A DNA stretch of 31,930 nucleotides. Origin: a virus. The stretch lies in IMG/VR virus record IMGVR_UViG_3300032083_000034, positions 1 through 31,930 of that record; one strand, written 5' to 3'. The first letter of the stretch is position 1; every line of letters begins with the position of its first letter. The notes beneath the pieces were generated by a model. That model was not told the DNA's origin. It ran no database searches and worked only from the letters and a program-made list of their open reading frames with translations. Both the position numbers and the translations under genes were made by a program. Positions 16,847 to 24,398 of the stretch are shown piece by piece.

Positions 16847-17125
16847 TTAAACTTTAAAACCTTTTTTCCAAGATTGCACTGCCCAATAAGCAGGGGATAG
16901 GTTTTTCTGTCCTTTGACTTTGGCTAATATAGGTCTAAATCTAGCCATAAAACTTCTTTGTCTAGCAGGGATATTTTTCTTTATAGAAAGATTAGGGTCG
17001 CCAAATCTGACTATTTTAACATTGCCAGTTGCTTTATTCTTCACATATACACCAAACTTCTTTGACTTGCTAGGTGTTCTAAATGGTTTATTCAGCTTAA
17101 CTTGACGACCTTTATAAGTAGCCAT
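16847..17125 (-). CDS. Small basic protein, DUF6321-like, without its usual cysteines, 92 aa
   Basis: The sequence contains VKLNKPFRTPSKSKKFGVYVK and VKIVRFGDPNLSIKKN. I recognise both as the signature of a small domain frequent in phage head modules, often fused to prohead proteases. In the forms I recall, the second half carries a histidine/cysteine cluster before a YW motif. Here that part reads FMARFRPILAKVKGQ...SPAYWAVQSW with no cysteine. It is strongly basic, starts by TAATG coupling to the 32-aa gene and ends 3 nt before the MuF-like ATG. The function is unknown. Confidence 0.75.
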   Translation of the reverse strand: MATYKGRQVKLNKPFRTPSKSKKFGVYVKNKATGNVKIVRFGDPNLSIKKNIPARQRSFMARFRPILAKVKGQKNLSPAYWAVQSWKKGFKV

Positions 17126-17223
17126 TATTTCTTTTTCTTTCTTTTGTGTGCTGAGTTTTTCATCAATCTACCATCTGGCATATAATGAAATCCTCTAGGT
17201 GCTTTTTTACGTCTTTTAGCCAC
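17125..17223 (-). CDS. Very small basic protein, 32 aa, GTG start
   Basis: The frame reads VAKRRKKAPRGFHYMPDGRL, then MKNSAH and a basic KRKKKK end. The phrase GFHYMPDGRLMKNS matches a widespread short marine-phage protein that I recall without function. The GTG start overlaps the upstream stop as TAGTG, and its own stop overlaps the next ATG as TAATG. Charge suggests nucleic-acid or capsid-interior contact. Confidence rests on the recognised motif and tight coupling. Confidence 0.75.
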   Translation of the reverse strand: MAKRRKKAPRGFHYMPDGRLMKNSAHKRKKKK

Positions 17224-17300
17224 TATTTTTTTTTCTTCTTTCTTTTCTTCATCTTCATAGAAGATTTAACTGATTTTGTTTTTCCGTAGTGTTTTGGCAT
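17223..17300 (-). CDS. Micro-gene for a lysine-rich 25-aa peptide
   Basis: This frame begins MPKHYGKTKSVKSSMKMKK and ends in a lysine run. AAGGA lies 8-9 nt upstream of the ATG, and the TAG stop overlaps the GTG of the next gene. The MPKHYGK start is shared with other tiny phage peptides I recall. It overlaps the -1 extension (17255-17464) by 46 nt in another frame, so at least part of this segment is coded twice if both are real. Confidence 0.6.
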   Translation of the reverse strand: MPKHYGKTKSVKSSMKMKKRKKKKK

Positions 17301-17697
17301 TGGTTTATCCTTTCTTCGTAATGTTTAAAACATAATAGTTCTAACATACCAAATCTGTAATTAAAACCTATACATGCAAACTTACCACAAAAGCATTTCT
17401 TTTGACCATGTTGTTGATGTGTCCAGTTGTATAAATCATTAACTGAAACAGTCTTGCCTTTTACTTTTTCTTTTTGCGTAAGTCTAAGTCGTGTTTCCGA
17501 CTACCTCTTAGAAATGAATTAACTCTACCCATAGACCATGCCGCCATAGGAACTCTACGACTACCTGCGGATAAGAAAGCACCCTGTCCTCTACGATACA
17601 CTTTTGCTAATGTTGTATAAGTATATTTCTTAGATGCCTTTGCTTTTCTTTGTAAGGTTGCTTTTACAGTAGCGGATAATGGTTTAGCTTTTACCAT
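17255..17697 (-). CDS. Possible -1 frameshift product: DUF5824-like domain plus cysteine-rich extension, 147 aa
   Basis: The 78-aa gene ends CGC AAA AAG AAA AAG TAA. In the -1 frame, 69 further codons are open to TGA at 17255-17257. They encode convincing protein: SVNDLYNWTHQQHGQKKCFC, GKFACIGFNYRFGMLELLCF and KHYEERINQC. Five cysteines and several histidines suggest a metal site. No ATG, GTG or TTG precedes the cysteine region in that frame, so it must be reached by slippage at one of the AAA AAG pairs (17464-17476), by an unusual start, or the sequence has an indel. Length fits a -1 shift (443 nt plus 1 equals 148 codons). The extension looks genuine. How it is translated is the open point. 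Confidence 0.55.
17461..17697 (-). CDS. Small basic head-module protein, DUF5824-like, 78 aa
   Basis: The sequence includes KAKASKKYTYTTLAKVYRRG, QGAFLSAGSRRVPMAAWSMG and RVNSFLRGSRKHDLDLRKKKK. The YRRGQGAFLSAGSR...W..GRVNSF pattern is a recognisable short domain (DUF5824-like) found repeatedly in marine phages. Its role is unknown. The ATG overlaps the upstream stop (TAATG). The end is an alternating AAA AAG tract directly before the stop, see the frameshift entry. Strong positive charge is shared with the neighbouring small genes. Confidence 0.8.
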   Translation of the reverse strand: MVKAKPLSATVKATLQRKAKASKKYTYTTLAKVYRRGQGAFLSAGSRRVPMAAWSMGRVNSFLRGSRKHDLDLRKKKK

Positions 17698-20001: not shown

Positions 20002-21221
20002 TAACTCCACCTCTTGGGTTTACTTGGTGTAAACTGTCTTTTGACAGGGTATAAATATTCCACTAAATATCCTAATGCATCATTCATATGGTCGTAATTG
20101 TTGTCCTTGTCAGGCACAGTTGTTCCTTCTTTATAAATTTGTCTTTCAATGCTTTTTAGCATAGTTTTGCATTTATTTGCAATAAATAATGTTCTGTCAC
20201 CAACTCCGTTCTTCAATTTAGTATTCACTGCATTTATTCTATCTCTAATGAGTGGATGATTATTTCTTACTCTGATATTAAATCCTGCATTTTTTAATAT
20301 AGCTAAATCTGTGACACCACCTGCTGATGTTTTTCTTTGCTTTGACGCAGGGTCAGGATAAATAAATATATGCTTATCCTTAAATCTATTTTTGATTTCT
20401 TGTACCATTTCGTCAGTATTAGAACTATAGATAACAATCTCTTCATAGAGATAAACATTATTGCCTTTTAACTCACATATCACAGCACTCATTGGGTCTA
20501 TATTGAAGTCCATGCCAATATGTATTTCATCAGTTTCAGGAATATAATTATCTATAACATTCTCTTTTCTATCAAAGTTATAATATATTTGACCTGCATA
20601 ATTCACAAATGAACCCATATACTCTTGTTGAAATGTTCTTTCGTCTAGGTCTTGTTTAGCTTGTTCTATTTCTTGTGGTGATACCCTGCCACCATCTAAG
20701 GTAGTAAATTGAAATGATGCCCAGTTATTTGGGTCTTCATCAGCTTTAGTAAATAGGTTATAACTCCAGTTTCCATATCCTCTAGGTGTGCCACAGAATA
20801 AAGCTGAACCATTCCTATCAGATAAAGTTGGTCTTAAAATTTCATACCAAGTATTCTCTCTAATATCTGCGAACTCATCCATAATTAAAAAATCTAATCC
20901 TACACCTCTAAGGCTATTTTCATTATCTGCACCCCTTAATGATATAGTTGAGCCATTTCTTAATGTAATAGTCAAGTCAGAGTTATTAACGGATTTAATC
21001 CATTTATGTGCGGTTAGCTTTTCTATTAAGTCAGTCCAAACAATCGTCTTAGCCATTCTATAAGTTGGTGCTACATACCAAACCTTACGTTTAGGATATC
21101 GGCTAAACTTAGCTATCTCAGTGACGGATAAAAAAGTTTTTCCCCACCGCCTCCCTGCGATAATGCACCGAAATCTTTTATCACATTCAAGAACTTGTTT
21201 TTGAGGTTTACTTAGTGGCAA
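20001..21221 (-). CDS. terL: Terminase large subunit
   Basis: The 406-aa protein has an N-terminal packaging ATPase and a C-terminal nuclease. Walker A is AGRRWGKT (residues 22-29). The adenine/arginine region VWYVAPTYRMAK follows. Walker B is LIMDE (112-116) and the coupling motif is CGTPRG. The nuclease domain shows HIGMDFNIDP (first acidic residue) and IYPDPASKQRKT, then the C-terminal NNYDHMNDALGY with conserved Asp/His/Asn. It overlaps the XF1762-like gene by 14 nt and is followed by the portal gene. Cohesive-end versus headful packaging cannot be decided from sequence alone; the circular assembly fits headful or terminal redundancy. Confidence 0.97.
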   Translation of the reverse strand: MPLSKPQKQVLECDKRFRCIIAGRRWGKTFLSVTEIAKFSRYPKRKVWYVAPTYRMAKTIVWTDLIEKLTAHKWIKSVNNSDLTITLRNGSTISLRGADNENSLRGVGLDFLIMDEFADIRENTWYEILRPTLSDRNGSALFCGTPRGYGNWSYNLFTKADEDPNNWASFQFTTLDGGRVSPQEIEQAKQDLDERTFQQEYMGSFVNYAGQIYYNFDRKENVIDNYIPETDEIHIGMDFNIDPMSAVICELKGNNVYLYEEIVIYSSNTDEMVQEIKNRFKDKHIFIYPDPASKQRKTSAGGVTDLAILKNAGFNIRVRNNHPLIRDRINAVNTKLKNGVGDRTLFIANKCKTMLKSIERQIYKEGTTVPDKDNNYDHMNDALGYLVEYLYPVKRQFTPSKPKRWS

Positions 21222-21702
21222 TAATTAAACAACCTTTTTCCCATCTATATTTTATTTTTTTATATATCTCTTGATTTTGTCTAACTATACCATCTTGCTT
21301 TTGTTTATTTAACCAAGCCTTAGAACTATCTTTAGTTTGACTTACAATTCGCATCCCAATAGCTTTACAAGCTGCTGATTTTTCTTCTATCAAGGTATAA
21401 GTAATCATTCTTTGATAGCCTAGAGCATCTGCAACTCTCCAACATCTTCCATAAAGATAACTATTTGTGTTTCTAGGTGCGTTATCTAAGACACAAGACC
21501 TAAGTAATTCTAATGTTTTCTTATCATCTAATGTTGCAGATATAGGTCTGCCACATATAGCAACACCAACTAGGTTATTTTCATGTAAAACACCTATTGA
21601 GAACTTATGTCCTTGAACTTTTTTGTTATGACTATGATGTTCTGTGACAAATTCATTAGCTTCTTTTAATGAGATTGGAATAGTGGTGAAGTTTTTAGAC
21701 AC
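21208..21702 (-). CDS. XF1762 / Mom-like GNAT-fold protein, 164 aa
   Basis: The start is GTG, overlapping the TerS stop as TAGTG. Motifs are PISLKEANEFVTEHHSHNKK, QGHKFSIGVLHENNLVGVAI, CGRPIS, LYGRCWRVADALGYQRMITY and AACKAIGMRI. This is the pattern of the XF1762 family. The layout (HH near the start, a GHKFSIGV strand, CGRP, A.ALGY..MITYT) resembles phage Mu Mom, a GNAT-like enzyme that modifies adenine in phage DNA to block restriction. A DNA-modification role is therefore an inference. The position between the terminase genes suggests action on DNA about to be packaged. Confidence 0.7.
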   Translation of the reverse strand: MSKNFTTIPISLKEANEFVTEHHSHNKKVQGHKFSIGVLHENNLVGVAICGRPISATLDDKKTLELLRSCVLDNAPRNTNSYLYGRCWRVADALGYQRMITYTLIEEKSAACKAIGMRIVSQTKDSSKAWLNKQKQDGIVRQNQEIYKKIKYRWEKGCLIIATK

Positions 21703-22020: not shown

Positions 22021-22072
22021 GCGTAGAGTGTACGCTAATTGCTTTATATCAATAATAGACACTATTAATCAA
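22021..22072 (-). promoter_or_regulatory. Probable late promoter with two palindromic operators
   Basis: On the minus strand, TTGATT (22072-22067) and TATAAA (22048-22043) are 18 nt apart, a reasonable sigma-70 promoter driving TerS and the virion genes. A 15-bp palindrome TAATAGACACTATTA (22053-22067) occupies the spacer and touches the -35 box. A second, GCGTA-GAGTG-TACGC (22021-22035), sits where transcription would begin. The -35 box overlaps the methyltransferase stop codon. A repressor or activator binding both sites would control the packaging and structure operon; the ribbon-helix-helix protein at 27163 is a candidate. Confidence 0.6.
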
Positions 22073-23208
22073 TTTATTTTTTCTGCCTTTTGTCCTGTGT
22101 ATTGTTCCCAACGCTTGACAATTACATCAATATACTTTGGGTCTAACTCCATCATATAGCATTTACGATTAGTTTTTTCACAAGCAATCATAGTTGAACC
22201 ACTACCACCAAAAAAATCTATAATAATATCATCTGATTTTGATGAATTTTTTAATGCTCTATCAATAAAAGCAACAGGTTTCGGTGTTGTATGACCTTTT
22301 AAATTTTCTTTATGAATTTTCCAAACAGAAGTTTGTTTTCTATCACCAAACCAAGAATGAGTGCCTGTTTTATTCCACCCATATAAACAAGGTTCGTGAA
22401 TAGATTGATAATCTGTTTGTGATAATGTTAATGAATTTTTTTCCCAAATAATCATTGAACTAAAATGAAAATAATTTCTGAATGTTTTATGAAAAATATC
22501 TGCACATCTATCAGAATGAAAACAATAAATAGAGGCACCAGATTTAGAAAATAATTGATAATGATAAAATGATTTTTCCAATAATTGTTCTAATCCTTCT
22601 CTATCATCATTATTAATACCTTTATAATCAACACCATATGGAGGGTCAGTAAATATCATATCTGCTTTTTGATTATCCATTAATTTTTCTAATAATTCTG
22701 TGTCAGTGCTATCCCCACACATCAATCTATGTTCACCAAGTTTATATATATCCCCTAGTTGTGCCTTTGGTTCTTCAGGTGTTTCAGGAACTGCATCTTC
22801 ATCTGTTAGTCCATCTTTCTCACCTACAATTATTTTCTCTAACTCATCAGGGTCAAATCCTGTTAGTTCTAAATCATAATTATTATCTAGTAAGTCAGTA
22901 AACTCTTGAATTAATAAACCCATATCCCAATCAGAATATTCATTGGTTTTATTATCAGCTATTCTATATGCCTTTGCTTTTTCAGGTGGTAAGTCAGCAA
23001 TGGTGACAGGAATAGTTTTTAAGTTTAAAGACTTGGCGGCTTCATACCTACCATGTCCAACTATAATAACTCCTGCTCTGTCAACTACTATGGGTTGTTG
23101 GAAACCAAATTCTTTAATTGATTGTGCAACTTTATTTATATCGTATTTATGTCTCGGATTTTTTTGATAAGGTTTGATGTCGCTTATCGCTTTATCTTGT
23201 ACTATCAT
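22069..23208 (-). CDS. ParB-like domain fused to beta-class DNA methyltransferase
   Basis: The 379-aa protein has an N-terminal ParB/Srx-like domain (1-105; IKPYQKNPRH, FGFQQPIVVD, GHGRYEAAKSL). After a linker it has a methyltransferase domain with catalytic TDPPYGVDYKG (DPPY at 188-191) and SAM-binding FFGGSGST (332-339). The DPPY-before-FxGxG order is that of the beta class of N6-adenine or N4-cytosine enzymes. No partner restriction endonuclease is adjacent, so it is an orphan enzyme that likely protects phage DNA or marks it for packaging or replication. It is linked by TAATG to a 59-aa gene upstream and precedes the late promoter. Confidence 0.93.
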   Translation of the reverse strand: MIVQDKAISDIKPYQKNPRHKYDINKVAQSIKEFGFQQPIVVDRAGVIIVGHGRYEAAKSLNLKTIPVTIADLPPEKAKAYRIADNKTNEYSDWDMGLLIQEFTDLLDNNYDLELTGFDPDELEKIIVGEKDGLTDEDAVPETPEEPKAQLGDIYKLGEHRLMCGDSTDTELLEKLMDNQKADMIFTDPPYGVDYKGINNDDREGLEQLLEKSFYHYQLFSKSGASIYCFHSDRCADIFHKTFRNYFHFSSMIIWEKNSLTLSQTDYQSIHEPCLYGWNKTGTHSWFGDRKQTSVWKIHKENLKGHTTPKPVAFIDRALKNSSKSDDIIIDFFGGSGSTMIACEKTNRKCYMMELDPKYIDVIVKRWEQYTGQKAEKIN

Positions 23209-23567: not shown

Positions 23568-24398
23568 TTATGTCTCGCCATTCGCAATAGCTTTATCTAG
23601 TTCTTCAATATAACTAACTGACCATGATAAAGGCTTAATACCTTTTTTACGCATATCTATATCACCTTTTAACTTCCATTCTCGCATTTCCTCATTTGAT
23701 TTTTCTTTAACAGGTGTCACTTCAAGATATATCTTTTTCCTCAAAAACCGCTCTAGTGCCTTGTAATAATCACCTTTTTGGTTTCTATAGGTGACGTACT
23801 TATCCCCTACTGATTGTTTTTGTTTATCATCTAGTTTTTTCCATTGTTGAAAGCTATCCCACTTTACTGACCTAGTATCTTTATAATCTAAAACATACTT
23901 TCGCCAGAAAGTATCAAATTCCTGCGTATATATATTTGATTTATGATTAATGGTTGGTGTGTTAGTGTGTTCGTGTGTTAGTGTGTTAGCATTGCCAACG
24001 CTATGCGTTTGCACTGCGTCCGCATTAGGTGTTGTATCCCCTTTTGGTGCACCAGAGGGGTATCGAACACCCCATCTTGCCTCTGCTGACTTGACTGCCT
24101 TTTGATGCTTTTCTTTAGCTTTTTCTATCTCTAAGTCACATCTTTTGTTGTGAATTTTACCTTCTTCAATATAGATTTTATCTTTGTTGATTAGTTCAGT
24201 TTTGATTTTCTCTATATCTTCATAGAAAGGTCTAGTCACTTGTTCCCAAGTCACTTCGTCATCAAATAACTTATTATCCTGAACGTAAATTAAATCGCAT
24301 ATTCTGCGATAGGCTAGTTCAGCTTTACCTGTAAGTGTAGAACAACCTGTCCACATATCGTTTGGACAATATTGTACGAATATCATTTTCTTTGTCAT
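23568..24398 (-). CDS. DUF1376 replication-type protein
   Basis: I place the start at 24398 because GGAGG lies 5 nt upstream, giving 276 aa; a longer upstream start has no such site. The N-terminal 100 residues (FVQYCPNDMWTGCSTLTGKA, ELAYRRICDLIYVQDNKL, then EGKIHNKRCDLEIEKAK) are the DUF1376 domain, found in phage and prophage replication initiators such as YdaU. A linker rich in Thr/Asn/His (about 125-150) precedes a C-terminal helical part with EFDTFWRKY and KALERFLRKKIYL. It likely helps load or start replication at the phage origin. No helicase loader or helicase gene accompanies it, so host proteins are presumably used. Confidence 0.8.
   Translation of the reverse strand: MTKKMIFVQYCPNDMWTGCSTLTGKAELAYRRICDLIYVQDNKLFDDEVTWEQVTRPFYEDIEKIKTELINKDKIYIEEGKIHNKRCDLEIEKAKEKHQKAVKSAEARWGVRYPSGAPKGDTTPNADAVQTHSVGNANTLTHEHTNTPTINHKSNIYTQEFDTFWRKYVLDYKDTRSVKWDSFQQWKKLDDKQKQSVGDKYVTYRNQKGDYYKALERFLRKKIYLEVTPVKEKSNEEMREWKLKGDIDMRKKGIKPLSWSVSYIEELDKAIANGET

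Follow-up and report, generated by a model that had tools for sequence, protein, structure and literature searches.

The DUF5824-like gene and the Cys-rich frame

The window, i.e., the whole stretch of virus DNA that was analysed (31,930 bases), encodes a capsid protein 69-79% and a terminase 55-58% identical to those of the Pelagibacter phages HTVC111P, 112P, 202P and 026P, which indicates that the virus is a marine relative of the pelagiphages. The studied locus has the terminase/portal genes on one side and the minor head, scaffold and capsid genes on the other, in a cluster where stop-start overlaps are the rule (Table 1). The 0-frame gene ends with CGC AAA AAG AAA AAG TAA. The DUF5824-like label given to it in the preliminary description turned out to be weak, the Pfam match (PF19141) having an E-value of 0.003 and 18.1 bits against a gathering score of 25, whereas PHROG 28338, the annotated function of which is unknown, was matched solidly (E=1.3e-17). 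Homology to a tail assembly chaperone (lambda G/GT), which lies upstream of the tape measure gene, was not found, and the position between the portal and minor head genes does not correspond to that of such a chaperone.

An open frame on the minus strand extends from 17500 to 17255; its translation has five Cys and contains WTHQQHG, FCGKFAC and GFNYRFG. The frame comprises 69 sense codons from GTA (17464) to the stop and stands in the -1 register relative to the 78-aa gene (17697-17461). The 69 codons, the three motifs, the five Cys, the -1 register, the continuation after AAA AAG AAA AAG TAA and the lack of a usable start codon had been described earlier from the sequence, and all of them were reproduced. 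The Cys-frame codons preceding the domain are TCG GAA ACA CGA CTT AGA CTT ACG CAA AAA GAA AAA GTA AAA GGC AAG ACT GTT TCA GTT AAT GAT TTA TAC AAC TGG; ATG, GTG, TTG, CTG, ATT, ATC and ATA, that is, any NTG or ATN, are absent from this part of the window. The sole Met of the frame is internal (GMLELL). Standard gene finding would miss this protein family due to the absence of a start codon.

Table 1. Features of the locus in window coordinates.
Feature	Position	Strand	Remark
0-frame gene, 78 aa, DUF5824-like / PHROG 28338, ends RKKKK*	17461..17697	-	
Stop codon TAA of the 0-frame gene	17461..17463	-	always TAA in Cys+ genes
-1 frame appended after the slip, Cys-rich domain, 71 aa	17255..17470	-	predicted fusion product 147 aa
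Conserved domain core, W to HYxxR, invariant C-x-C...C-x2-H, putative zinc site	17309..17425	-	
Proposed slip site C_AAA_AAG (0-frame codons AAA AAG)	17470..17476	-	
Second possible slip site G_AAA_AAG, adjoining the stop	17464..17470	-	not conserved (AAG AAG, AGA CGC in relatives)
ACG codon in the Cys frame, candidate non-AUG start	17477..17479	-	
Conserved stem-loop AGUCG-NAARCA-CGAYU, just 5' of the slip site	17487..17502	-	
Shine-Dalgarno-like GAGGU directly 5' of the stem-loop	17503..17507	-	may alternatively pair with 17480-17483 as an outer stem

In the Cys frame, from past the 0-frame stop to the internal Met, pS and pN of 0.463 and 0.059 were determined with 19 unique close relatives, resulting in a dN/dS of 0.086. 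In the same 19 relatives, the other two frames were interrupted by stops in 10/19 and 19/19 of the sequences, and their ratios were >1. By this comparison, the Cys frame is evidently under strong purifying selection and translated. A start at the internal Met was rejected, as the part upstream of it is also under strong purifying selection.

The Trp, C-x-C-G, C-x2-H and Arg of the domain were invariant in 45 relatives, and three invariant Cys and one His in such spacing suggest a zinc site. A confident small fold was predicted by AlphaFold (pLDDT 87.7). No credible match to this fold was found in PDB or among viral models, and no match to the sequence in Pfam, PHROGs or PDB sequences, so that by none of these (Pfam, PHROG, PDB sequence, fold) could the domain be assigned to a known zinc-finger family or fold. 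Relatives of the domain were absent from the genome contigs and INPHARED phages searched. The fusion product would presumably be a minority head- or neck-associated protein.

Encoding of the Cys domain in relatives

The scan of IMG/VR resulted in 55 loci with relatives of the Cys frame, to which more distant ones were added by a profile scan. Among the 74 distinct sequences compared, every one located after a DUF5824-like gene with the HDLDLR-Lys tail was in the -1 register. The 32 distinct DUF5824/Cys junctions (contig sequences) shared one register, and none had an NTG start. Upstream of the domain Trp, ATG, GTG, TTG, CTG and ATC were found in no member of this class, ATA in a few, and ATT in one, inside the conserved part.

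The other upstream genes were a gene of the virion cluster, about 220-245 aa in length and with the ending LEDVTYSA or LEDYD, one gene ending with ISAID, and a second DUF5824 type ending with KRKSRK. Behind these, the Cys frame was at +1 and nearly always had an in-frame ATG, GTG or TTG; in L046, for example, the start is the ATG in TAATG. Only L160 and L169 among the +1 forms had ATA/ATT alone. In the domain tree (midpoint-rooted, short alignment), all the -1 forms grouped in one clade with the start-bearing +1 forms around it. From this arrangement, the Cys domain is judged to be ordinarily a free-standing overlapping gene, and most likely one lineage lost the start once the Cys gene came behind this DUF5824-like gene. 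The comparison of relatives proposed in the preliminary description hence gave a separate ATG, GTG or TTG gene in nearly all the other lineages and a -1 frame always after AAAAAR in the lineage of the window.

Some further features of the relatives were observed. The Cys gene occurs behind at least four different upstream genes, as if a module were inserted at gene ends. In several relatives, the upstream TAA stop comes from the module's own CTAAAGG or GTAAAAGG (codons for xKG), the site corresponding to 17461-17464 of the window. In L160 and L169 (LEDVTYSA class), ATA stands near position 2990 where the Cys gene usually has its ATG (GAGGATGTC to GAGGATATT), which is another possible non-AUG start.

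Proposed slip site and conserved 5' element

The motif [C/A]_AAA_AAR was present at one fixed place in 29/29 distinct genes followed by the Cys frame (Cys+) and in 43/81 homologues without it (Cys-); the Cys+ genes are one clade, and these and the following counts are therefore not independent events. The Lys-rich tails of Cys- relatives frequently contain AAAAAR tracts. The tetramer A_AAG/A_AAA was found in 29/29 Cys+ genes, the full X_XXZ_ZZN heptamer only in the A_AAA_AAG and A_AAA_AAA lineages. A slippery motif (Z_ZZN or X_XXZ_ZZN) is accordingly found in frame before the 0-frame stop, and a translated -1 ORF lacking its own start is found downstream. Of the tetramers in E. coli, A_AAG slips most readily, although on its own it is barely shifty and needs a stimulator (PMC4066793). 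The tails of the Cys+ genes were CGC AAA AAG AAR AAG TAA, CGC AAA AAG AAA AAG AAG TAA, CGA AAA AAG AAG AAG TAA, CGA AAA AAG AAA AAG AAA TAA and CGA AAA AAA AGA CGC AAG AAR TAA. The Lys codons 3' of the slip site thus vary among the Cys+ genes.

An NTGA junction, which gives NTG in the same -1 frame, was determined in 26/81 Cys- homologues and in none of the Cys+ genes. A single change of TAA to TGA, silent in both frames, would yield GTG in Cys+ genes, and TAA was kept throughout. Because of the 26 Cys- relatives, a normal start is within easy reach at this junction, yet it never occurs in Cys+.

In 32 Cys+ genes, the ten codons adjoining the Lys tail on its 5' side had a synonymous divergence of 0.177 compared with 0.358 in the preceding 29 codons, the corresponding values of 42 homologues without the Cys frame being 0.432 and 0.470. 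The contrast between the Cys+ and Cys- genes persisted at matched divergence. By parsimony, the codons GGT, AGT, CAC, GAC and TTA had undergone two changes in total, while about 20 were expected from the upstream codons (P 5e-7, with the five codons picked after inspection of the data). Their positions coincide with the stem AGUCG/CGACU and its flank, and the free third bases are located in the loop, the bulge or at places tolerant of G-U. All 126 cells of the stem pair in 14 distinct sequences, with one-sided G-U changes only and no two-sided change, and the fold energy differed from that of random synonymous codings only with P 0.04-0.09. Therefore, the case for the element is based on the synonymous constraint and the comparison of Cys+ with Cys- genes. 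A scan in which the pattern was degenerate with respect to the encoded peptide detected the inner stem in 29/29 distinct Cys+ and 1/81 Cys- genes.

L239, the one Cys- DUF5824-like gene with the inner stem, may belong to a lineage from which the Cys frame was lost, or have the stem by chance. Dual coding upstream of the slip site was ruled out as the source of the synonymous constraint, since the -1 peptide there varies freely (LRLT/LGST/LRFT/FRPT) and CGT variants place a stop in it. A conserved 3' stem-loop was likewise not evident: the individual folds differ, and the single-sequence folds had no 3' structure in common. Nothing credible was found in Rfam.

GAGGU, replaced by GGGGU in two Cys+ sequences, is 26 nt from the heptamer linearly and 10 nt from it with the stem-loop folded out. 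Bacterial -1 frameshifting is stimulated either by a downstream structure or by an upstream Shine-Dalgarno sequence at about 6-17 nt, and a spacing of 10 nt is that of dnaX.

Proposed programmed -1 frameshifting and competing explanations

The Cys domain is probably the C-terminal part of a 147-aa fusion produced by programmed -1 ribosomal frameshifting. Most ribosomes would read the DUF5824-like gene to TAA, resulting in the 78-aa protein, and some would slip back one base with Lys-tRNA on [C/A]_AAA_AAR and read into the zinc-finger-like domain. We infer the slip itself and its rate, as well as the proposed role of GAGGU and the stem-loop just 5' of the slip site in setting the efficiency. 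Such frameshifting would account for the missing start, the kept slip motif, the variable Lys codons following it and the absent NTGA junction. Against it stand the imperfect heptamer C_AAA_AAG and the fact that no conserved 3' stimulatory structure is evident, the 5' element being the only conserved candidate stimulator. The weak slipping of A_AAG alone, the attenuation of -1 slips by E-site hairpins in other systems, the equally complete conservation of ACG, the shared ancestry of the Cys+ genes and the frequency of AAAAAR tracts in Cys- tails also count against it.

The preliminary description had offered either recoding or a non-AUG start, and both readings survived the comparison of relatives. 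According to the latter, a separate Cys protein would begin at the conserved ACG (17479-17477), with GAGGU as the recruiting element. With the stem-loop folded out, the effective spacing between the two would be about 7 nt, and this geometry makes initiation at ACG the main rival, although a rather unlikely one. ACG was found in 29/29 Cys+ compared with 23/81 Cys- genes and is situated 18 codons before the domain Trp, as is the ATG of the LEDVTYSA relatives. It is also in agreement with the conservation of both GAGGU and the stem-loop, with the normally free-standing Cys gene of the relatives and with the finding that Cys+ genes never have CGT before AAA, a codon by which ACG would be followed by a stop. 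However, GTG or ATG is only one or two silent changes off and never used, the conservation of AAA AAR is not predicted, and ACG is partly a consequence of CGN and YTA codons of shared ancestry. ACG is also a very poor bacterial start.

A restart of ribosomes terminating at TAA, at a non-standard Cys-frame codon adjoining the stop, is very improbable. The stop falls at the boundary of the domain, in a cluster where stop-start overlaps prevail, but the codons there (GTA/ATA, AAA, GGN) include no accepted start, and only the coding is conserved around the stop. Slippage of RNA polymerase on the A-rich tract, by which edited mRNAs would join the frames, can hardly be expected either: a run of eight A occurs in the L081/L102 lineage, but the window and most of the relatives have runs of only five A, split by G. 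Sequencing error, including the indel considered in the preliminary description, and a chance open frame were rejected and, like gene decay, have a negligible probability, as they fit only the odd anatomy of one sequence, whereas the -1 register, the absent start and the motif are common to 32 distinct contig sequences, among which the slip site occurs in several variants, the dN/dS is 0.086 and the Cys/His are invariant.

Regarding programmed frameshifting in more specific terms, it is possible, although doubtful, that a 5'-only -1 signal is used in these marine phages, where a Shine-Dalgarno sequence would be brought to working distance from the imperfect C_AAA_AAG by a stem-loop folded behind the ribosome. 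The signal would have arisen with the loss of the start from a free-standing zinc-finger gene, which thereby turned into the frameshift extension of its neighbour.

Phage -1 recoding is of a known kind, while novelty apparently lies in the gene, in the domain and in a conserved element restricted to the 5' side. In lambda G/GT, a domain is appended through a low-level -1 slip close to where a short gene of the structural cluster ends (PMC5009743), as is proposed here, but the DUF5824-like gene lies between the portal and minor head genes, and the slip motif and the zinc-finger-like extension are different. The T7 gene 10 capsid protein is likewise a virion-cluster protein with a C-terminal extension obtained via a -1 slip on an imperfect heptamer (PMC5009743), although the proteins and signals are unrelated. 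The proposed slip of Lys-tRNA on A-rich sequence 3' of a Shine-Dalgarno-like element resembles E. coli dnaX (A_AAA_AAG, internal Shine-Dalgarno); in contrast to dnaX, the site is mostly C_AAA_AAG, GAGGU is distant unless the stem-loop folds out, and a conserved 3' stem-loop is not evident. Refolding hairpins immediately 5' of a slip site also modulate frameshifting in other systems, where -1 slipping is attenuated by those in contact with the E site (PMC3639245, PMC6321510); the inner stem here is 10 nt from the slip site and its effect is only proposed. In the light of these hairpins, the 5' element might reduce slipping, instead of stimulating it, should the outer stem form as well.

The closest cultured relatives by capsid and terminase, the Pelagibacter phages HTVC111P/202P/026P, carry a DUF5824-like gene, in HTVC111P elsewhere in the genome than in the window, and the Cys domain was not found in them. 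In the open-access literature searched, no paper naming DUF5824 was found, nor any title or abstract on frameshifting in pelagiphages, absence there being no proof. For the relatives of Pelagibacter phages, the locus provides a conserved candidate for recoding in a gene other than the tail chaperone, and its start-bearing relatives and start-less clade are directly comparable. A 5'-only signal would test the effect of duplexes behind the ribosome on -1 slipping.

Several minor observations were made in the window and the relatives. Two tiny Lys-rich ORFs (17125-17297) follow the Cys gene and overlap its 3' end, the first (MPKHYG) beginning within the Cys gene and the second appearing to use the GTG in TAGTG; in many relatives, tiny basic genes (MPYGKGTYGSK...) follow the Cys gene. 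A Mom-like DNA modification protein (PHROG 1384) is encoded at 21208-21702, adjoining the terminase, with a ParB-like/DNA methyltransferase gene nearby at 22069-23208. Tandem repeats of 12 and 36 bases, TTCTTCTACA-like, are located at 205-340, and GTTAGTGT forms a tandem array of 4.6 copies at 23953-23989. At positions 1-130 of L214, poly-C at the contig start is followed by an apparent Illumina adapter sequence, an assembly artefact in the public record.
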